NCBI GenBank assembly: GCA_004172865.1
Contig: SEBV01000007.1
Location: forward strand, 186,001 to 250,000
Direction: 5' to 3'
From: Gammaproteobacteria bacterium
Lineage (GTDB): Bacteria > Pseudomonadota > Gammaproteobacteria > Pseudomonadales > Cellvibrionaceae
DNA: 64,000 bases
The notes under the pieces were generated by a model. That model made no database searches and was not told where the DNA came from. It saw only the letters and a program-made list of their open reading frames with translations. The translations under genes were made by a program, and so were the position numbers. The number at the start of each line of letters is the position of its first letter. Within the stretch, counting starts at the first letter, position 1. Positions 9,311 to 19,224 of this stretch are shown here, in pieces.

Positions 9311-10339
9311 ATGAGCACACCCGATTACGAATCCATATTTAAAACGTCTCCGCATCCCTATGTAGTGATCAACAGTGACTTGACTGTGCTTGATGCTAAC
9401 GATGCTTATTTGTTATCGAGCGGTACAGATAAAGAAAATATTATCGGCAAATATGTTTTCGATAATTTTTCTGAAACTGCTAACGCGGAAGTCTCAGTTG
9501 AGCGTTTGAAGGATTCTTTGGAAGCCGCATTAAAAGACCCTGAAACGGGTTCTTCAATAGCGGTGGAAAGCGAAGGAAAAACTTTTGTGGTTACGCGGCA
9601 AGCCTTAGCAGAACCGGCCAGTGAAATAGAAAAATATCGGATGGCGGCTGCTCATAAGGATGAATTTTTGTCCCTGCTCGCGCATGAGTTGCGTAATCCA
9701 CTTTCGTCGATCAATGCGGCGGCAGAAATCTTAACTATGGGTCAACCTGACCCTGCACGTTTGCAAAAAATGACGAGTGTGATCAAACGTCAAATTACTT
9801 TGCTTGCATCATTAACGGATAATCTTTCTGATGTTTCCCATCTCAGTAAAGGCCTGTTGGATGATTTGTTGGTGCTCGATATCAAGCATGTAATTGCGGA
9901 AGCGATTGAACAACACAGCGCGTTTATCGATTCGAAAAATCATAAACTGACGCTTAATGTTCCCTCTGAAGAAATTAAAATTTCCGGCGATCACAAACGT
10001 ATCGCACAAGCGCTTGGCAATGTATTAACTAACGCTGCAAAATATACACCTAATGGTGGAAATATTGGTGTAGATGTAAGTCTTGCGGGTGAGCAAGTAG
10101 TTATAGATGTGACTGATGACGGAATAGGAATATCGTCCCAATTATTGCCGAATATTTTTGACTTGTTTGCGCAAGGAAAAAAAGACTCCGACCATTCGCA
10201 ACGTGGCTTGGGAATAGGGTTGGCGGTTGTTAAAAGTATCGTGGAAGCGCACGGTGGAAGTATTAGTGCGTGCAGTAATGGAAATGCGAAGGGCAGTCGT
10301 TTTGAAATCCGTTTGCCTCGGCTTCAAGACAAAGAATAA
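9311..10339 (+). CDS. PAS-domain histidine kinase
   Basis: A soluble 342-residue sensor kinase. A PAS domain (about 5-105) is followed by a HisKA dimerisation helix with phospho-acceptor H125 in LLAHELRNPLSSI. The HATPase domain (about 220-335) has N-box NVLTNAAKYT, G1 DVTDDGIGIS and G2 RGLGIGLAVVK. There are no TM segments and no receiver. It is convergent with the hybrid kinase at 10466-11971, whose HisKA-HATPase core is very similar in wording, so the two are likely paralogues. The partner regulator is unknown. Confidence 0.92.
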   Translation: MSTPDYESIFKTSPHPYVVINSDLTVLDANDAYLLSSGTDKENIIGKYVFDNFSETANAEVSVERLKDSLEAALKDPETGSSIAVESEGKTFVVTRQALAEPASEIEKYRMAAAHKDEFLSLLAHELRNPLSSINAAAEILTMGQPDPARLQKMTSVIKRQITLLASLTDNLSDVSHLSKGLLDDLLVLDIKHVIAEAIEQHSAFIDSKNHKLTLNVPSEEIKISGDHKRIAQALGNVLTNAAKYTPNGGNIGVDVSLAGEQVVIDVTDDGIGISSQLLPNIFDLFAQGKKDSDHSQRGLGIGLAVVKSIVEAHGGSISACSNGNAKGSRFEIRLPRLQDKE

Positions 10340-10465: not shown

Positions 10466-11971
10466 CTAAACAATTAACCCAATAGATTCCAGCTTTTTGA
10501 AATCCAGGGGTTTAACAAAGTGATCGTCAAAACCGGAATCTAACGCTGCTTGCCTGTCAGTTGCCTGACCATAGCCTGTAAGTGCTATCACCGTAAATGT
10601 TGAGCCATTGGGTAATGCGCGTAATTTTTTCGCTACGTCATAACCATTGAAGTCTGGCAATCCTATATCCAATAAAATAATGTCCGGACCAAATTCAATT
10701 GCGGTTTCAACGGCGCTAGCGCCCGTGAATGCGGTTTGAACATTGTGTCCGTTGAGTTCAAGCAATTGCGCAAGTGTAATTGCACCGTCTTCATTGTCAT
10801 CAACAACTAAAATACGTTTGATGGTTTCTTCAACTTTTGTATTTTGAATAGTAGGAGCGCTCGGTAGGGATGTATCTATCGGTAAAGATATTTCAAAAAC
10901 GCTACCTAGCCCTAAACCTTTACTGCTCGCTTTAACTTCGCCGCCATGAAGTCTTACTAAAGCGCGTACTAACGATAAACCAATTCCAAGGCCGTCATGG
11001 ACACGATCAGTGACGTGGCCGCTTTGCGTAAACAGATCAAAAATAGTGTTGATGCTATTAGGCGCAATTCCAATTCCATTATCGGTTAATCGGATAATAA
11101 TTCGGCTATCTACCACTTCTGTTGTTAAATCAATTTTCCCGCCGGGTTCAGTAAATTTCGCAGCGTTGATTAAAAGATTTGCCACGATTTGCGAGAGCCG
11201 AACTTGGTCGCCGCTTACCCAAATATCGTCTTCCGGCAGAGTCACTGTCAAATTATGTTTGCGTTTCTCGATAGACTGACTGCTTTGCTCTATGGCGCTA
11301 TCGATAAATGTTTTTAGTCCGACTCGCTCCCAGCGTAATGAAATTTTGCCTTTTGAAATGCGCGATACATCCAGCAAGTCATCAACTAAGTGCGCCAAAT
11401 GATTGGTATGGCGAAAAATAGTGTCGCGCGCAATCTCAAGTGCAGGATCAATTTCAGGTTGTAATTTTCGCCAGAGTTCTACGGAGTTTCTGATAGGCCC
11501 TAAAGGGTTGCGAAGTTCATGGGCTAGCGTTGCCAGAAATTCATCTTTGCGGCGATCTACTTCGCGCAATTCGCGCTCTACTTTTCCAAGTCGCAACAAA
11601 GCTTTTACGTTTGAAATTAATTCGTCTGGTTCTATAGGTTCTACTAAATAATTATCGGCGCCGCCATCTAAAGCGCGAATTTTATCGGCTGAACCAATAA
11701 ATGATGCGGAAGTTTGTAACACTAATATTGTTTGTGTTTCTGGGTCTTCTTTTAATCGACGACATACTTCCAAGCCATTGATATCGGGAAGTTTCACATC
11801 GAGCAAAATCAAATTGGGATTTTCCGCGCGCGCTTTTTCCAAGGCTTCGCTTCCGCTAACAGCTTCTATAACTTTGAAACCCGCGCGCACCAGGGTTCGC
11901 GTTTTTGCGTAGCGCGCACCGTCGTTATCGTCAACGTTCAGAATAAGCGCATCGGTATATGAATTGGGCAT
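10466..11971 (-). CDS. Receiver-HisKA-HATPase-receiver hybrid kinase
   Basis: A 501-residue soluble hybrid kinase. The N-terminal receiver (about 8-125) has acceptor D58 in LLDVKLPDING, but the usual Lys-Pro is Glu-Pro (YLVEPIEPDEL). HisKA carries H151 in TLAHELRNPLGPI. The HATPase contains LTDNGIGIAP and DGLGIGLSLVR. The C-terminal receiver (about 385-500) has VVDDNED, LLDIGLPDFNG and FVKPLDF. I start at the ATG at 11971 because GGGAA lies just before it, inside the end of the upstream gene. An ATG at 11986 would overlap that gene. It is the last gene of the stressosome-type operon, so it is a plausible phosphorelay output of that module. Confidence 0.92.
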   Translation of the reverse strand: MPNSYTDALILNVDDNDGARYAKTRTLVRAGFKVIEAVSGSEALEKARAENPNLILLDVKLPDINGLEVCRRLKEDPETQTILVLQTSASFIGSADKIRALDGGADNYLVEPIEPDELISNVKALLRLGKVERELREVDRRKDEFLATLAHELRNPLGPIRNSVELWRKLQPEIDPALEIARDTIFRHTNHLAHLVDDLLDVSRISKGKISLRWERVGLKTFIDSAIEQSSQSIEKRKHNLTVTLPEDDIWVSGDQVRLSQIVANLLINAAKFTEPGGKIDLTTEVVDSRIIIRLTDNGIGIAPNSINTIFDLFTQSGHVTDRVHDGLGIGLSLVRALVRLHGGEVKASSKGLGLGSVFEISLPIDTSLPSAPTIQNTKVEETIKRILVVDDNEDGAITLAQLLELNGHNVQTAFTGASAVETAIEFGPDIILLDIGLPDFNGYDVAKKLRALPNGSTFTVIALTGYGQATDRQAALDSGFDDHFVKPLDFKKLESIGLIV

Positions 11972-11975
11972 AAAA

Positions 11976-13775
11976 TTATTTCCCATCTAGGTTGTGCTCT
12001 TTTGAATGACGCGATTCTGAAATTGAGCTACCAATTAAAGTTCTTAAAGTAGATATCAACTGTTGCTTGAATATTGGTTTTATATAGTAGGCATCCGCAC
12101 CAAGCGACAAACCTTTGCGTTTGTCTTCCACTTCGGTGGCAACAATCACGGGCACACGGCGACGCACAGGGTCATTTTTAATTTGCGCTAACCATGCCCA
12201 TGAATCTTCACCGTTTAACAGAATATCGAGAATTACGGCAGCAGGTTTTACGCTTCCCCAAATATCCTCTGCTTCGCGAATGGAGCTCGCGGTAAATACC
12301 TGGAATTCGGTATCCACCAAAAACTTTTCGTAAAGTAAGCGAACTTGCGCTTGGTCTTCCACGACTAAAATTTGCAAGCGGTTTTCGTCGCGAATGGTGT
12401 TTGTTAAAACTTCCTCGTCAATATTTTCTTTAGCAAAAAAGTGTTGCGGTAAAGTTACAGAAAACGTTGACCCAACACCAACTGTACTTTCAACCGCGAC
12501 GCTACCATTTAAAATGGTGGCCAAATTGCGGCACAGTGGTAAACCTAAACCGGTACCTTTTACATGGCGTTGAAGCGGATTTTCAAGTTGACTGAATTCT
12601 TCAAAAATTAATTTTTGATCGCGCTCTTCAATGCCGAGGCCGGTATCTTTTACGCTAAATTTAACCAAGCCCTGTTCGGGGATAGTAATTACACTTACGG
12701 TGATTTCACCTTCCTGAGTGAATTTCAGCGCATTTGAAATAAAGTTACGCAAAATTTGCGAGAGCTTGGCTTCGTCCGTAAACATTTCCAGCGGCGTGTT
12801 CGGTATAACGAAATTTAAATTCAGTGAGGTAGAAACCAAAAGTGGTTTCAGCATTCCTCGCAATGCGCTGAACATTTCAGTCACGTCAAATTCGTGTGGC
12901 CGCACATCAACTTTACCAGCTTCGATTTTCGCCAAATCCAATAAGTCGTTAACCAATTCATTCAAGCCGAGCGCGCCTTGCAAAATAAACATAATTTGCT
13001 TTTCTTGCTCGACGGTAAGTTCGCCGTCGACACGATCTAACAATAATTTTGAGAGCGCACGAATCGAACTTAATGGCGTACGGAATTCATGGCTCATGTT
13101 GGATAAAAACCGCGATTTCATTTCATCGGCGCGACGTAAATGATCAGCTTTTTCATCCAGCTCTGCGTAGAGAGCAACTACACCACGATTGGTATCTTCC
13201 AGTTCGCGTGTTAGCTGCAGCAAATCTTCCTGACGATTTTTCAATTCGGAGAGTGCGCCCAGTAATTCCTGATTTTGTTCGAGCACTTCGGACATAGTGA
13301 TGTTGGCAGGTAGTGATGCCAATTGTGCGACCAAATCACTGCTCATTTTCGGCGTGATTAAAGGTGCATCGCGCGGAAAGATTTTTTGTAAAATTATTTC
13401 CGTACCAATATCCTTCACGGTTTTTATATCAAACTTATCCATCAATCGTCGCGAGCCTAATAATCCTTTACCCATGCCAGTGGAGGATTTATAAGCACCT
13501 GAAAAAATAAGATCGAGGTTGGTAATGCCAGGACCTTTGTCTTCAATATGAATGGTAAGAATTTGCGGTGTAGTTTCGCCTTCAATGGTGAAATGAACTT
13601 TGCCCGAGCCAGCGTAGTTGTAAATGTTGCGCGCCAGTTCAGACACTGAGGTCGCGATGCGCACCTGATCCTGGCTACCGAATCCGCACAGCTTGGAAAT
13701 TTGATGCGCGCGTTGACGCGCACCAACCACATCCAGCTCAGTTTTAATTCCAACCGTTAAAATACGAATTGTCAT
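11976..13775 (-). CDS. RsbT-like ATPase fused to HisKA-HATPase-receiver hybrid kinase
   Basis: A 599-residue protein with two separate GHKL ATPase folds. Residues 1-135 resemble RsbT/anti-sigma kinases: VSELARNIYNYAG N-box, IEDKGPGI G1 and GMGKGLLGSRRL G2. A coiled coil (about 160-220) leads to HisKA with H229 in NMSHEFRTPLSSI. A second HATPase follows (about 335-450, VKDTGLGI, HVKGTGLGLPL), and then a receiver (about 470-590, VVEDQAQ, VILDILLNGED, YIKPIF). It begins directly after the stop of the upstream RsbW/SpoIIE-like gene. The fusion suggests that stressosome partner-switching feeds straight into histidine phosphorelay; that link is inference. Confidence 0.92.
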   Translation of the reverse strand: MTIRILTVGIKTELDVVGARQRAHQISKLCGFGSQDQVRIATSVSELARNIYNYAGSGKVHFTIEGETTPQILTIHIEDKGPGITNLDLIFSGAYKSSTGMGKGLLGSRRLMDKFDIKTVKDIGTEIILQKIFPRDAPLITPKMSSDLVAQLASLPANITMSEVLEQNQELLGALSELKNRQEDLLQLTRELEDTNRGVVALYAELDEKADHLRRADEMKSRFLSNMSHEFRTPLSSIRALSKLLLDRVDGELTVEQEKQIMFILQGALGLNELVNDLLDLAKIEAGKVDVRPHEFDVTEMFSALRGMLKPLLVSTSLNLNFVIPNTPLEMFTDEAKLSQILRNFISNALKFTQEGEITVSVITIPEQGLVKFSVKDTGLGIEERDQKLIFEEFSQLENPLQRHVKGTGLGLPLCRNLATILNGSVAVESTVGVGSTFSVTLPQHFFAKENIDEEVLTNTIRDENRLQILVVEDQAQVRLLYEKFLVDTEFQVFTASSIREAEDIWGSVKPAAVILDILLNGEDSWAWLAQIKNDPVRRRVPVIVATEVEDKRKGLSLGADAYYIKPIFKQQLISTLRTLIGSSISESRHSKEHNLDGK

Positions 13776-14804
13776 TTAGAGTCCTGCAATATCTCGTATA
13801 ACTACAATGGTTACGTCGTCGCGCCCACGAACAAAATCGCGGTACAACACTGCCGCAATTAAACTTGGATGCGACCTTTCCAAACCGGGATAAGCATCGA
13901 GATCCCAACGCGTGGCAAGTCCATCCGAGTGTGCGATCATCAGCGAGCCGCTTTGCCAGGAATGAGAAAATTCCTGCACCTTTCGCAGATTACTACCGAC
14001 TATGCCGTTGTGCGAAATCAAATGGCGACGGCCCGGATTTTCAAACACGCTCACTGCAATATTACCCACCCCTGCGAATCGCAATTGCCCACGCTCTTCG
14101 TCAATTTGCGCTATGGCAACCGCTGCTCCACGAGTGCCGTGCAATGCAGCATGCGCACGTTCGAGCATTACGCCTGGTGGTCGGGTTAAATTTTCCGCTA
14201 CAACATCCACTGCAGCTCGCGATGCAATTGCAGCGTCGGGGCCATGCCCTAAACCATCTGCAACTAATAGAGTTAAAGTATTGCCATCGGATTCAGTCGT
14301 CCATGCGTCACCGCACACAACTTCGCCTTTTATGGGTATGCAAATCGCACCGATTTGCCACTGCTGATCTGCTTTCGGAATTTGATTTGCCCAGATCACC
14401 ATCAGGAGCACTGCGCCTTGACTGTAATTGGAGTAAATATCGAATTCTTGTGAGAGGCGGCTCATGGCCCCGAGCCCACCGCCGTAGGTTCCGGTGGTGG
14501 AATTACCGTCTTCCATTTGCAATGTGATATTGGAAATTCCGGGGCCGCTATCGACAGCAATTATTTCAATGCCGACGCAATCGCCGTCATCGATGGTACG
14601 TATAAGAATTTCGCCGTGTTGGGCGTGCTTGATAATATTGGTGGCGGCTTCGGTAACTACGAGAGCAGCCTGGCCTTTTTTGGTTTCGTCGAAACCTAAA
14701 CGTGCTGCGAGTAAAGTGACGGAACGGCGCACCGCAGAAATTTCACTCGGCTCCCCGATGTGAAATGCCTGTTGCGTGCTAAAGCGCTTCAAAACTGTTT
14801 CCAC
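13776..14804 (-). CDS. Anti-sigma-type ATPase fused to SpoIIE/RsbX-like phosphatase
   Basis: A 342-residue two-domain protein. Residues about 1-140 are an RsbW/RsbT-like GHKL kinase domain (VVTEAATNIIKHAQ N-box, AVDSGPGISN G1, GTYGGGLGAMSRL G2). Residues about 145-342 are a PP2C-type SpoIIE/RsbX phosphatase domain with metal-binding Asp in GDAWTTE and VADGLGHGPDAA, and a C-terminal RGRDDVTIVV. In stressosomes RsbX dephosphorylates RsbS and RsbR and resets the complex. The fused kinase domain could act on STAS partners. It overlaps the RsbT-like gene by 16 bases, so translation is coupled. Confidence 0.92.
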   Translation of the reverse strand: METVLKRFSTQQAFHIGEPSEISAVRRSVTLLAARLGFDETKKGQAALVVTEAATNIIKHAQHGEILIRTIDDGDCVGIEIIAVDSGPGISNITLQMEDGNSTTGTYGGGLGAMSRLSQEFDIYSNYSQGAVLLMVIWANQIPKADQQWQIGAICIPIKGEVVCGDAWTTESDGNTLTLLVADGLGHGPDAAIASRAAVDVVAENLTRPPGVMLERAHAALHGTRGAAVAIAQIDEERGQLRFAGVGNIAVSVFENPGRRHLISHNGIVGSNLRKVQEFSHSWQSGSLMIAHSDGLATRWDLDAYPGLERSHPSLIAAVLYRDFVRGRDDVTIVVIRDIAGL

Positions 14805-15205
14805 TTAGCGATCTTTACTGTGGTGCCTTTACCGGGAGTTGTATCAATTTCGAACTCGTCTGAAAGGCGCTTTGCACCGCTCAAACCTAAACCCAAACCA
14901 CCACCGCTGGTATAGCCATCAGTCAACGCAAGCGCTATGTCTGGAATACCTGGACCTTGGTCAATAAAGCTCATTGCAAGTCCGCGTCGGCTTCCATCAA
15001 ATATATGCTCAATATGAGCTTCGCCGCCGCCGCCGTAACGTAAAACGTTACGCGCAAGTTCACTGGCGGCAGTCACTACTTTGGTCTGCTCGACTAGACC
15101 GAAGCCGATAGCGATTAAATCCTCCCTAACTTGCTTACGTAGCCGAACAACATCTTCGTCAGTTTTTAATGGCAGCACTGTGGCTTCCCCTTGAGCTGGC
15201 GTCAT
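14789..15205 (-). CDS. rsbT: RsbT-like serine/threonine switch kinase
   Basis: A 138-residue GHKL kinase matching RsbT in length and order of motifs: AASELARNVLRYGGGG (N-box), FIDQGPGIPD (G1) and GLGLGLSGAKRLSDEF (G2). RsbT phosphorylates the STAS proteins RsbS and RsbR in the stressosome, is released, and then activates a downstream partner. That partner is RsbU in Bacillus and proposed to be two-component proteins in Gram-negatives. It lies between the RsbS-like and the RsbW/SpoIIE-like genes, in the canonical R-S-T-X order. Confidence 0.93.
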   Translation of the reverse strand: MTPAQGEATVLPLKTDEDVVRLRKQVREDLIAIGFGLVEQTKVVTAASELARNVLRYGGGGEAHIEHIFDGSRRGLAMSFIDQGPGIPDIALALTDGYTSGGGLGLGLSGAKRLSDEFEIDTTPGKGTTVKIAKWKQF

Positions 15206-15259
15206 ATTAAAGCGTCCGCTGTCACGAATTATCGGTGTGTTGGATCGATTCGCGCATGC

Positions 15260-15616
15260 TTAAGGGTTGCCCCGATCCAGCAATTTAATACCTCGCTCAA
15301 CATTGAGTGCGGTACTTACACCTTCGAGTGTTAAACCAAGTTCCACCAAAGTGATAGCGACTGCTGGCTGCATACCGACTAGAACGGTGCGTGCATCCAG
15401 AATTTTGGCCATGGCTGCAGTGTTGCTGATCATTCGCCCGATGAATGAGTCGACTATATCGAGCGCTGAAATATCAATCAGCACTCCAGTCGCACGATCA
15501 GTCACGATTCGATTGGTTAAATCGTCCTGCAAGGTCATCGCAAGGCGGTCATGCATATCAACTTGAATGGTAACCAGCAACAGCCGTCCCATCCGCAGAA
15601 TAGGAATACGTTCCAT
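15260..15616 (-). CDS. rsbS: RsbS-like STAS-domain stressosome protein
   Basis: A 118-residue single STAS domain that aligns along its length with RsbS. The phospho-acceptor serine is S57 in IVDSFIGR, equivalent to the known RsbS serine in a DSFIAK context. The GMQPAVAITLVELG segment is also the RsbS form. It would form the stressosome core with RsbR and hold RsbT until it is phosphorylated. The upstream RsbR-like gene ends six bases before it. Confidence 0.94.
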   Translation of the reverse strand: MERIPILRMGRLLLVTIQVDMHDRLAMTLQDDLTNRIVTDRATGVLIDISALDIVDSFIGRMISNTAAMAKILDARTVLVGMQPAVAITLVELGLTLEGVSTALNVERGIKLLDRGNP

Positions 15617-15622
15617 AGATAA

Positions 15623-16489
15623 TTAGCGCTCGTTATCTGAATAACTAATAGTTGAACCTGTGCGCTGCAATGCAACAACAAAGGCATCCGCAAGCGTGGC
15701 CTTGGTAATAACGTCTTCCAGATTTACACCAAGATGCACGATGGTTTGGGCGATCTGTGGGCGAATACCGCTGATAATGCAATCTGCACCCATCAAACGA
15801 GCAGCGGCAATAGTTTTCAATAAATGCTGCGCAACCAAAGTATCTACAGTAGGAACGCCGGTAATATCGATAATCGCAATGAGCGCGCCGGTATCAACAA
15901 TTTTCTGTAGCAAGTTTTCCATTACAACTTGAGTACGAGCGCTATCGAGTGTTCCAATCAGTGGCAATGCCAAGACATTTTTCCACAATTGAACTACCGG
16001 TGTAGAGAGTTCTAATAATTCTTGTTGTTGACGTTGAATGATTTGCTCGCGCGTTTTTTGATAAACCTCAATGGTGTAAAGGCCAAGATCATCAAACAAG
16101 GTGCTGGTGGTTGCAATTTCTTCGCTCAATTCCAGCGGAGTATTTGCAAGCGCAGTACGAAGATAATTAAACAATGGAGACTTGAGTGAAAATACAAAAT
16201 TTGCAGTCTCAATTGGTGAAAAACCCTGACGTGCGCGGCTCTGGGAAATTTCGGCTAACAAATGACGAATATCTTCCCAGTCAGTTGCAGATGTATTAAC
16301 CGTTGTGCTTTTTTTAAGGGTTGTAGCCAATAACTGAAGAAACTGTGACGCTTGATGACGAAGTTCGCTTTCAGAGCTTTTGTCGCGACGAACCAGGCGA
16401 GAAGTTAAATTCGCTATCCAACCATCAAGCAGCTCAGCTTGATGAGAAGAAATGATGCTTTCAAGTTGAGTGGTTTTGTTGTTACTCAT
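15623..16489 (-). CDS. rsbR: RsbR-like stressosome sensor with RsbRD-type N domain and STAS
   Basis: A 288-residue protein. The N-terminal helical domain (about 5-155) resembles the RsbRD N domain rather than a haem globin; I see no obvious haem ligand motif. The STAS domain (about 170-285) keeps both regulatory threonines in context: VPTVDTLVAQHL and GIRPQIAQTIVHLG. The start is the ATG at 16489, with TGAGGAT five bases upstream. A longer frame to 16639 would add 50 residues with no ribosome site. It heads the operon, and the divergent BLUF gene shares its 338-base upstream region. The signal sensed is unknown. Confidence 0.92.
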   Translation of the reverse strand: MSNNKTTQLESIISSHQAELLDGWIANLTSRLVRRDKSSESELRHQASQFLQLLATTLKKSTTVNTSATDWEDIRHLLAEISQSRARQGFSPIETANFVFSLKSPLFNYLRTALANTPLELSEEIATTSTLFDDLGLYTIEVYQKTREQIIQRQQQELLELSTPVVQLWKNVLALPLIGTLDSARTQVVMENLLQKIVDTGALIAIIDITGVPTVDTLVAQHLLKTIAAARLMGADCIISGIRPQIAQTIVHLGVNLEDVITKATLADAFVVALQRTGSTISYSDNER

Positions 16490-16827
16490 ATTTATCCTCA
16501 AAAATTTAGGCAGTATCGATAACTCAATTGGCACGCAAAGAGATGATGCTTTTGTTTGCGGCAAAAAAACATGCCGAATGTAGCAGTAAAACATGAAAAT
16601 GACATCTCTTTTCACCCCGTGCAGACTTGAATTCTCCACGTGTTCGTCAAAGCAATAAAAACAATTGGGTTGATGAAAAAATGCGCAAACTCTTGAAAAT
16701 TTTATAAATGAAATTTTGCTGCTAAAGTTATCGTTGTAAGGCTTTTTTAATCGAAATGATTAGTATTTGGTTTTAAGGTTCTAAAAAATAAATTGGTATC
16801 TTTAGCTGCAAGTAAAGAGGAAATTTT
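16490..16827. promoter_or_regulatory. Divergent intergenic region between stressosome operon and BLUF gene
   Basis: 338 bases without a gene. It must carry the promoters of both the stressosome operon (leftward) and the BLUF gene (rightward). No convincing -35/-10 pair, hairpin or palindrome stood out. The half near the BLUF gene is strongly AT-rich. Confidence 0.5.
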
Positions 16828-17247
16828 ATGGCGGCGTTACAAGCAATTGTGTACATAAGTTCAGCAACGCGTTTATTGGCCGGTGAAGAGCTCGATTCGC
16901 TTTTGGATTTAATTAGAAAGCGAAACGAAGCTGAAAATATCACCGGGTTTTTAATGTATTGTGATGGAAACTTTATGCAGTACATCGAAGGGCCGCAGGA
17001 ATCGCTGCAAAAAATTTATCAGAAAATATGTGCTGACCCATCGCATACCGATATTGTTGAGATGATTAATCAACCGATAGATGCACGCGAATTTGCCGGC
17101 TGGTCTATGGCCTATTCAATTGTACACATCCAACAGTTTAACGAACTGTGCCGCGCCGAGTGGAAAGAGAGCGGTGAAGGTAATATTTCACAAGGGCAAT
17201 TTTTGCTGCGTAATTTTTGGGTGCAATGTACTAATCAAAATTTTTAA
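16828..17247 (+). CDS. BLUF-domain blue-light receptor, short type
   Basis: A 139-residue protein that is essentially one BLUF flavin-binding domain (about 4-97) plus a short C-terminal cap. The photocycle residues are present by eye-alignment to Slr1694/PixD: Y9 (VYISSA), N33 (RKRNEAENITG), Q51 (GNFMQYIEG) and W92 followed by Met (GWSMAY). It should bind FAD and signal by protein-protein contact, as there is no output domain. AGAGGAAATTTT precedes the ATG. It is divergent from the stressosome operon, suggesting, but not proving, a functional link. Confidence 0.95.
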   Translation: MAALQAIVYISSATRLLAGEELDSLLDLIRKRNEAENITGFLMYCDGNFMQYIEGPQESLQKIYQKICADPSHTDIVEMINQPIDAREFAGWSMAYSIVHIQQFNELCRAEWKESGEGNISQGQFLLRNFWVQCTNQNF

Positions 17248-17283: not shown

Positions 17284-19224
17284 TTACAGTTCTTTTTGTG
17301 GTTCTTTTTGCAGTACTTTTTGTAGGCCCAAGCGTTTTATGCGCGATGCTAATGTGGTTGGTTTTAATCCCAACAACACCGCCGCGCCATCATCACCGAA
17401 TAATTTCCAATCACATTTTTCTAACGCGATTAACATATTGCGTTTTACGCGCTCCTGCATTTCATCATCAAATACAATTTGTGATGAGTTTTCTATCTGC
17501 TGACTTACTTCTTGTGCAATTAGATTGCTGGCTTTTTGATTGGGCAAATCCAAGCCTAAATGACCTTGCTGCGCGGTGATAACCGCTCGTTCCATTACAT
17601 TTTGCAATTCGCGAATGTTGCCGGGCCACGCATAATGTTGTAATTGCGCGAGATCTGATTTGCGCAGCTTGCAATTATCTTTGTTAAATTTTTGACCAAT
17701 GGTGTCCAGAAAATGAATCGCTAAAAGGGCGATATCGTTCTCGCGTTCGCGCAATGGGGGTGAGTGAATAGGAAATACATTTAAGCGGAAATACAGATCT
17801 TCGCGGAAACGTTGCTGTTCGGCTTCCTGTTTTAAATTTTTATTGGTGGCGGCGATTACACGCACATCTACATTGCGGGTTTTTTCTTCGCCGACGCGTT
17901 CAAGTTGGCCTTCCTGCAATACGCGCAATAATTTACTTTGCAATTCCAGCGGAATTTCACCAACTTCATCTAAAAATAAAGTGCCACCATTGGCGAGTTC
18001 AAAACGGCCGATGCGATCTCGCACTGCGCCAGTAAATGCGCCGCGAATATGACCAAAGAATTCGCTTTCAAAAAGTTCGTGAGGAATTGCCGCGCAATTT
18101 ACGCGAATCATGGGTTTATCTTTGCGTGTGCTTGCTTCGTGAATTGCTCGCGCAATTAATTCTTTGCCAGTGCCGGATTCGCCGGTAATTAAAACGTTGG
18201 CATCGGTTTGCGCCACTAAACCAATTTGCTGGTGAATGCGTTTAATCGCGGGGCTTTCACCAATGATACCGTGGTAGCGTTGCTCGCTTAAAATTTCTTG
18301 CTGCAGATAGGCGTTTTCATCTTCAAGCCGAACTTTTAATTCTTTTAATTCCTGTAATGCATCGCGCAATTTTTTTTCGGTTTCCATGCGTTGGCTGATA
18401 TCGCGAAACACAACGACTGCACCAATGATGCTGCCTTCCGAAATAATGGGCGTGCTGGTGAATTCAACAGGGAAGGGTGTGCCATCGTGTTTCCAGAAAA
18501 CCTCCTGAATACCTTCGTGGACAATGCCATCGCGAATTGCGGCGTAAATCGGGCATTCTTCAACGGGGTAGTGGGTTCCATCTTCGTGGGTGTGGTGATG
18601 AACGTAATGGATATTTTGCCCGAGCACATCGGTGTCGGTGCGCCCCAACAAACGTTTCGCCGCCGGGTTGATAAAAGTGCAAAGCCCGTTGGTGTCTACG
18701 CAATAAATTCCATCGCCAACGGATGTGAGCATCAACAAATTGTCGCGTTCGCCTTGCTGGAAAATAGATTGCAAATGCTTCCATTCCAGAATGCCGTTGC
18801 GCGCAATTTGATCGGCGTAGGCTTTATCGCGGCTGCGCTCTTCTGAATCCACATCTTTAATGGACACCACTAAATACTCGCGACCTTTAATGACGGTGCG
18901 CGATGCGGATAGCTCAACGGGAATACGCATATCGTTTTTCAAGCGGCAGGAAATGCGTTTACTTTTAGCGTGGCCAGTGAGCATGGCTTCTTCGGTGAAG
19001 ACGATAAGTTGCCCAAGCTCGCGCCCATGAATATAGGAAATGGACATCTTGAGAATTTCCTGGCGACTAAAACCCAGCAAATCGCAGGAGGCAATATTGC
19101 AGTCGATATATTGGTTCTTCTGCGGATCAAGCAGCATTAAAGGTTCCGGACACTGCTCAAATGCCGCGTGCCGCATCCAGTAAGCGAGTTCCTGCCAGCC
19201 ATCGTTCGTATCATTGTCAATCAT
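17284..19224 (-). CDS. Sigma-54-dependent PAS-PAS-AAA+-HTH transcription activator
   Basis: A 646-residue bacterial enhancer-binding protein. PAS1 (about 20-125) and PAS2 (about 160-280) are followed by a coiled coil (about 275-315). The AAA+ domain has Walker A GESGTGKE at 348-355, the sigma-54 contact loop GAFTGA at 395-400 and Walker [13 protein letters not shown] Fis-type HTH near 595-640 ends the protein. There is no receiver, so control is by ligand or redox sensing in PAS. It is divergent from the nitrilase cluster, which has a sigma-54 promoter, so it is almost certainly that cluster's activator. A perfect palindrome 15 bases before its own start suggests autoregulation. The last codons are a degenerate 12-base repeat ([11 protein letters not shown]). 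Confidence 0.93.

Follow-up and report, generated by a model that had tools for sequence, protein, structure and literature searches.

A stressosome operon linked to two-component hybrid kinases in a gammaproteobacterium, with RsbT-like domains fused to its phosphatase and its first kinase

In Listeria and Bacillus subtilis, the switch kinase RsbT first phosphorylates RsbR and RsbS; once set free, it acts on RsbU (see PMC6614362). It contacts the linker of RsbU and orders it into a coiled coil (PMC12143880, which also points out RsbU_N kinases in stressosome operons). Beyond these, rsbRSTX modules with a globin-type RsbR and a single-domain RsbX have been described with eleven types of downstream protein, among them HisKA/REC phosphorelays (PMC9237108, Heinz 2022). 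In that paper RsbU_N is absent from the majority of the downstream proteins considered, the link from the stressosome to kinases without RsbU_N is left open, and the pair VvRsbT-VvD1 gave no positive interaction result, which counts against the reading favoured below. Further work has studied D1 and RSTX mutants of Vibrio vulnificus (PMC10014275) and the stressosome of V. brasiliensis (PMC4976288), and mentions the expression of rsbR, rsbS and rsbT in Burkholderia terrae (PMC5209427). Many bacteria have a stressosome but no SigB.

The locus described here lies in a 64-kb stretch of DNA, referred to as the window, and comprises six genes on the minus strand, given below in the order of transcription together with the linker of the first kinase.

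RsbR, 15623..16489, minus strand: RsbRD_N sensor domain and STAS domain (Pfam PF14361, 6.8e-27; PF01740, 9.3e-13)
RsbS, 15260..15616, minus strand: single STAS domain (PDB matches to RsbS 6jhk, 7.3e-31, and RsbS 6qcm, 2.8e-28)
RsbT, 14789..15205, minus strand: switch Ser/Thr kinase (Pfam HATPase_c and HATPase_c_2)
TX, 13776..14804, minus strand: RsbT-like GHKL domain (HATPase_c_2) and RsbX-type PP2C (Pfam SpoIIE)
D1, 11976..13775, minus strand: Pfam HATPase_c_2, HisKA, HATPase_c and REC
D1 linker, 13113..13298, minus strand: D1 residues 160-221, 62 residues, with the core ELEDTNRGVVALYAELDEKA
D2, 10466..11986, minus strand: Pfam REC, HisKA, HATPase_c and REC

All six open reading frames are present at the place and in the order given by a sequence-only reading of this DNA, namely RsbR, RsbS, RsbT, an RsbX-like protein and two hybrid kinases. 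They are separated by 6, 54, -16, 0 and -11 nt, so a single operon is likely; the open frame of RsbR extends up to a GTG at 16639. Rfam gave no matches within the window at gathering scores, a promoter scan found four candidates against 11.3 in shuffled sequence, and a terminator scan seven against 9.1. Among the NCBIfam matches listed for the six proteins no model rose above its cut-off, the best kinase match being TorS at 237/676.5 bits.

Compared by the text description in PMC9237108, the types of Heinz et al., VvRsbRSTX-D1-D2 of V. vulnificus among them, likewise consist of an RSTX core immediately followed by HisKA/REC proteins, with no SigB or RsbU gene. In those types, however, RsbR is globin-coupled and RsbX single-domain. 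The RsbR of the window carries RsbRD_N instead, and RsbT-like domains are joined both to its RsbX and to D1, which has the conserved linker as well. The RsbRST-RsbUVW-SigB-RsbX system of B. subtilis shares relatives of RsbR, RsbS, RsbT and RsbX and the Ser/Thr phospho-sites, but its output runs through the RsbU phosphatase to SigB, whereas here RsbU_N is unmatched and no SigB/F/G match exceeds its cut-off. In RsbU and the RsbU_N kinases (PMC12143880), too, a helical linker joins a regulatory domain at the N-terminus to a dimeric effector; that N-terminal domain is a four-helix domain in RsbU and an RsbT paralogue in D1. The MP1 plasmid of Deinococcus radiodurans R1 carries these six genes in unchanged order (DR_RS15570-DR_RS15595, annotated by domain names only); its D1 is 46% identical to that of the window over the RsbT-like domain and linker, and D2, unlike that of the window, has no C-terminal receiver.

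The suggestion that this architecture may be undescribed is therefore overstated as to kind, rsbRSTX with HisKA/REC proteins having been published (PMC9237108) and the six genes being present on MP1, and it gives too little weight to the RsbT-paralogue fusions and the linker. No description of the RsbT-kinase fusion or of the linker was recognised in the titles and abstract openings searched. The unusual part of the operon is thus the fusion of RsbT paralogues to a phosphatase and a kinase, together with the linker.

The first three genes have what is expected of a stressosome core: an RsbR with sensor and STAS domains and phospho-sites, an RsbS with its phospho-serine, and an RsbT with an intact GHKL site. 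S57 of RsbS falls on the serine of the solved RsbS chains 6jhk and 6qcm, and the STAS domain of RsbR aligns without gaps with Listeria RsbR chains, placing S183 on T175 and T217 on T209. T175 and T209 of Listeria RsbR, together with RsbS S56, are sites important for phosphorylation by RsbT (PMC6614362), and so S183 and T217 should both be phosphorylatable, with one serine in place of threonine; the conserved phospho-sites claimed earlier for RsbS and RsbR are thereby confirmed on known positions. RsbT keeps the ATP-site residues E49, N53 and D82, and a PDB sequence search with it gave no matches at E 0.001. Pfam matched no globin family in RsbR, its domains being RsbRD_N and STAS only.

The fourth protein was rightly recognised as RsbX-like in its phosphatase half, which matches a Moorella structure (3zt9, 6.4e-20) and RsbX (3w40, 1.7e-14) in the PDB. 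It differs from a single-domain RsbX in having an N-terminal HATPase_c_2 domain at residues 18-136, and is better described, from Pfam and the PDB, as a two-domain fusion of an RsbT-like GHKL domain and PP2C. The GHKL half retains E52, N56 and D85, and the PP2C half D166, D183, D294, D329 and D330, aspartates that we take to be metal-binding. At three other stressosome loci (L082, L083 and L084) a second RsbT-like reading frame lies beside or overlaps the PP2C reading frame, with no clean TX fusion, an arrangement that may offer a view of how the fusion arose.

The absence of sigma-B and RsbU, noted at first for the window, extends to the whole draft genome (99.89% complete, contamination 3.56), in which RsbU_N had no matches, B. 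subtilis serving as the sole control and being positive, and SigB/F/G had seven matches, none above cut-off. SpoIIE-type PP2C domains had five matches in the draft genome, including TX; the other four belong to two REC-PP2C-HATPase proteins, one REC-PP2C protein and one plain PP2C. One REC-PP2C-HATPase gene adjoins STAS and Hpt genes, the second has a STAS match close by, and the REC-PP2C protein also has a STAS neighbour. Sigma-B and RsbU homologues elsewhere in the genome that interact with this RsbT had been named as a finding that would speak against the proposal; other PP2C proteins do exist there, none with an RsbU_N match.

Conserved linkage had been proposed as a check in related genomes, and was borne out. 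RsbS (E <= 1e-12) is present in 12 of the 390 genomes sampled from the host's order, and in all 12, the window included, a histidine kinase gene lies directly 3' of the PP2C gene. Seven of these operons, again including the window, encode a full-length D1 with an RsbT-like domain, whereas four encode a shorter D1 in which the linker is partly kept and the RsbT-like domain is missing. In the divergent operon of G280 there is a single kinase of 819 residues that includes receiver and Hpt domains and a degenerate RsbT-like stretch and gave no linker match. A second gene, beginning with a receiver and matching a kinase core, comes next in 11 of the 12. The N-terminal part of D1 used as query (E <= 1e-10) matched 15 of the 390 genomes, namely the 12 with RsbS and three others, of which G044 has a divergent R-S-TX-HK set, and G095 and G161 gave no STAS match in the stretch read. 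Within the host's genus D1 is found in 5 of 21 genomes, so the operon is patchy; the same query matched 10 of 369 genomes in a class sample and 35 of 398 in a phylum sample, many matches covering the RsbT-like part only.

Beyond the order, the same succession of genes is also seen in Burkholderiales, Deinococcus and Actinobacteria, with shorter versions in Alphaproteobacteria. The full series R-S-T-TX-D1-gene six was found in D. radiodurans MP1, Deinococcus sp. KNUC1210, Caballeronia, Embleya and Nonomuraea, and also in genomes G697, G861 and G1027. Variovorax paradoxus has a six-gene row with a short D1 (by annotation and linker match), a five-gene version occurs in Sphingomonas, Salipiger, G895 and G888, and the archaeon Halobaculum has R-S-T-TX-HK-RR. 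Together, the six genes, their domains and the linkage in every RsbS genome of the order sample support a real stressosome module joined to two-component kinases, as first proposed, and without RsbU_N or SigB.

The first hybrid kinase, D1, was correctly called a kinase and proves to have an N-terminal RsbT-like domain as well. It consists of an RsbT-like GHKL domain (GHKL-N, residues 1-135) that keeps the GHKL Glu, Asn and Asp, a helical linker (160-221), HisKA (H229), HATPase and REC (D517); no further sensor domain was matched by Pfam, and a PDB sequence search with the RsbT-like domain gave no matches at E 0.001. D2 has the phosphorelay residues D63 (REC), H156 (HisKA) and D440 (REC), so that both proteins have the histidine and receiver aspartate of hybrid kinases. 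Pfam matched no DNA-binding domain in D2, and its final target should therefore lie elsewhere. Elsewhere in the host genome (C211, about 201300-203900) the gene of a REC-PP2C-HATPase protein is accompanied by one STAS and one Hpt gene, a set that resembles the HptB-HsbR-HsbA system of Pseudomonas. Its Hpt is a possible candidate target of the D1/D2 relay.

Gene six opens with a receiver match in every six-gene locus read, and its remainder varies: a kinase in Proteobacteria and Deinococcus (without the C-terminal receiver in D. radiodurans), a SpoIIE-type PP2C in Embleya (L090 7689-9344) and Nonomuraea (L091 7638-9206), and nothing further in Halobaculum, where it is a lone response regulator. 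Embleya and Nonomuraea thus have a stressosome module with a phosphatase output. As the receiver is constant and the rest variable, it is probably with this receiver that D1 interacts directly; the pattern fits both a direct transfer from D1 to it and a signal running outward.

Among the five D1 regions compared, conservation is highest in the linker. For the 19 D1 proteins left after thinning, its mean pairwise identity is 0.50, against 0.41 for GHKL-N, 0.43 for HisKA, 0.42 for HATPase and 0.28 for REC; for all 23 the values are 0.52, 0.43, 0.47, 0.45 and 0.30, respectively. As a query the linker found 11 of the 390 genomes sampled from the order, each of them one of the 12 in which RsbS is present (hypergeometric 1.7e-20, a figure that ignores kinship, 6 of the order's 142 genera being involved), while an equal-length piece of the adjacent HisKA matched 32 of 34 genomes in a smaller sample of the order. 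In the plasmid collection 23 of 72,556 records matched the linker, all of them RsbS-positive accessions and 17 from Deinococcus. A stressosome does not require the linker, since 76 of the 99 RsbS-positive plasmid records, and G280, gave no match to it. The C-terminal part of the linker persists where D1 lacks the RsbT-like domain (L059, L061, L062 and L066), and the linker stands beside a different His box, GGIAHDFNNLL, still matched by Pfam as HisKA, in L088, L108 and L109. In Salipiger the RsbT-like domain is joined to a HisKA_2 core, with no linker match in the plasmid search. The heptad signal of the linker is modest, being reached by 70 of 5000 shuffles.

The reading that we favour, with a confidence slightly better than even, is a stressosome with phosphorelay output in which RsbT, or the RsbT-like domain of D1, orders the linker and so switches the kinase. 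In the pathway that we infer, in each of its contacts and up to its final target, the stressosome would drive the kinases. RsbR and RsbS would form a STAS core holding RsbT, which under stress would phosphorylate RsbR (S183/T217) and RsbS (S57) and then be released, while the PP2C of TX would reset these sites. The phosphorelay would be entered at D1, by freed RsbT and/or by the RsbT-like domain of D1 docking on the core; the helical linker would be ordered into a coiled coil, comparable to the action of RsbT on the RsbU linker in B. subtilis, and the HisKA dimer thereby switched. Phosphate may then pass from H229 to D517 and/or to D63 in the first receiver of D2, whose relay (H156, D440) might end at an unlinked Hpt or regulator. 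Ordering of the linker is proposed because RsbU_N is absent and a conserved helix and an RsbT paralogue stand in its place. In the seven operons of the order whose D1 has its own RsbT-like domain, control in cis and in trans cannot be separated.

Gene content and order, domains, intact residues, the 12/12 linkage, RsbT paralogy, the lack of an RsbU_N match, the high conservation of the linker and its partial survival in D1 proteins that lack the RsbT-like domain, and the confinement of the linker to stressosome genomes in the samples searched all favour this reading. Against it stand the modest heptad signal, the RsbS plasmids without the linker, the relatedness of the genomes behind the linker counts, Salipiger with its RsbT-like domain and no linker match, and a poor AlphaFold2 model of D1 (three-row alignment, mean pLDDT 51.6, pTM 0.27). 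An alternative that we consider unlikely makes D1 a substrate of RsbT, transiently phosphorylated on Ser/Thr, with its RsbT-like domain serving only as a dimerisation partner for RsbT. This idea was offered by Heinz et al. for sensor kinases without RsbU_N (PMC9237108), and RsbT does keep its catalytic residues; speaking indirectly against it, the alignment shows the conserved part of D1 as a long helix in which conserved Ser/Thr are few.

The origin of the fused domains was examined in a tree built from 74 GHKL domains, with Lysinibacillus RsbW as a distant root and with some long branches. In this tree 21 of 22 TX domains form one clade (95/88), all 16 D1 domains and that of Salipiger form another (97/99), and the D1 domains, most RsbT proteins, including that of the window, and Lysinibacillus RsbT make up a 49-row clade (99/95). 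Judged by this distantly rooted tree, GHKL-N of D1 is a paralogue of RsbT and not of RsbW. The N-box Asn and most G1/G2 residues have been lost from the RsbT-like domain in 5 of 25 distinct D1 proteins, Salipiger being counted as intact (L060, L089, L090 and L091 among 17 D1 rows, and L111 among 23); all residues checked are kept in 19, and in L110 the change is limited to part of G2. By comparison, there is no such loss in 34 RsbT-type genes (three second copies included, RsbW and the Salipiger D1 left out) or in 23 TX domains. Pfam found no HATPase_c_2 in the degraded stretches of the five, and for the most degraded ones kinship is based on short BLAST matches; as L089, L090 and L091 group in the tree, there may have been only three events. 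We read this as an apparent relaxation of the need for catalysis in the D1 domain only, which would favour docking over kinase activity.

These losses also bear on the reverse direction, in which D1, through its RsbT-like domain, would act as a Ser/Thr kinase on RsbS and RsbR, and two-component input would modulate the stressosome. The complete or, in L110, nearly complete ATP site of the remaining D1 proteins is what such a kinase would need, yet we think this quite improbable, given that the site decays in D1 and in none of the RsbT-type and TX domains examined, that the four operons without an RsbT-like domain still keep part of the linker, and that the receiver-PP2C of Embleya and Nonomuraea looks like an output effector. 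Very improbable is a mere neighbourhood of kinases co-transcribed with the stressosome and answering their own signals without direct contact, for, complete as the kinase and receiver domains of D1 and D2 are, Pfam matched no other sensor domain in D1, the gene order recurs across phyla, and the samples searched gave the linker only in genomes with RsbS.

A stressosome with phosphorelay output can be carried a step further, tentatively and with somewhat less than even confidence. The RsbT-paralogue domain and the ELExTNxGVVALYAELD helix may together be the missing element that receives the stressosome signal in histidine kinases with no RsbU_N. They would then make up a portable cis-RsbT switch attached to varied kinase cores (mostly HisKA, HisKA_2 in Salipiger) in several phyla, its own catalysis dispensable, by which the stressosome would hold or release the kinase itself. 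In genome G1027, beside a full operon whose D1 has a degraded RsbT-like domain (L111), there is a separate pair (L110, 5518-8021) in which the genes of an RsbR and of a histidine kinase with a fused RsbT-like domain run divergently; the 15.5 kb read there gave no match to RsbS, RsbT or RsbX. This single case is compatible with direct commerce between the fused domain and RsbR. A kinase with a copy of the switch protein and a helix found, in the genome samples searched, only with stressosome genes hints at the route by which a stress signal reaches such kinases, and with D1's linker and RsbT-like domain the operon offers a concrete, testable interface. Natural variants are at hand, with the domain lost or deprived of its ATP-site residues, as is a laboratory organism with the same operon, D. 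radiodurans R1.

Several genes flank the operon in the window. A BLUF blue-light protein gene (16828-17247) is divergent from rsbR; it was considered as a light input and is treated as a neighbour, no match above 35% identity (E 1e-5) having been found in the related loci scanned. Upstream of the operon there is also a PAS-PAS sigma-54 activator (17284-19224), with a gene without Pfam match starting from 19494 on the strand opposite to it. At the other end a PAS-HisKA-HATPase kinase (9311-10339) is convergent with D2; the close relative L008 and its duplicate L113 have a counterpart, 48% identical to it, in the corresponding position.
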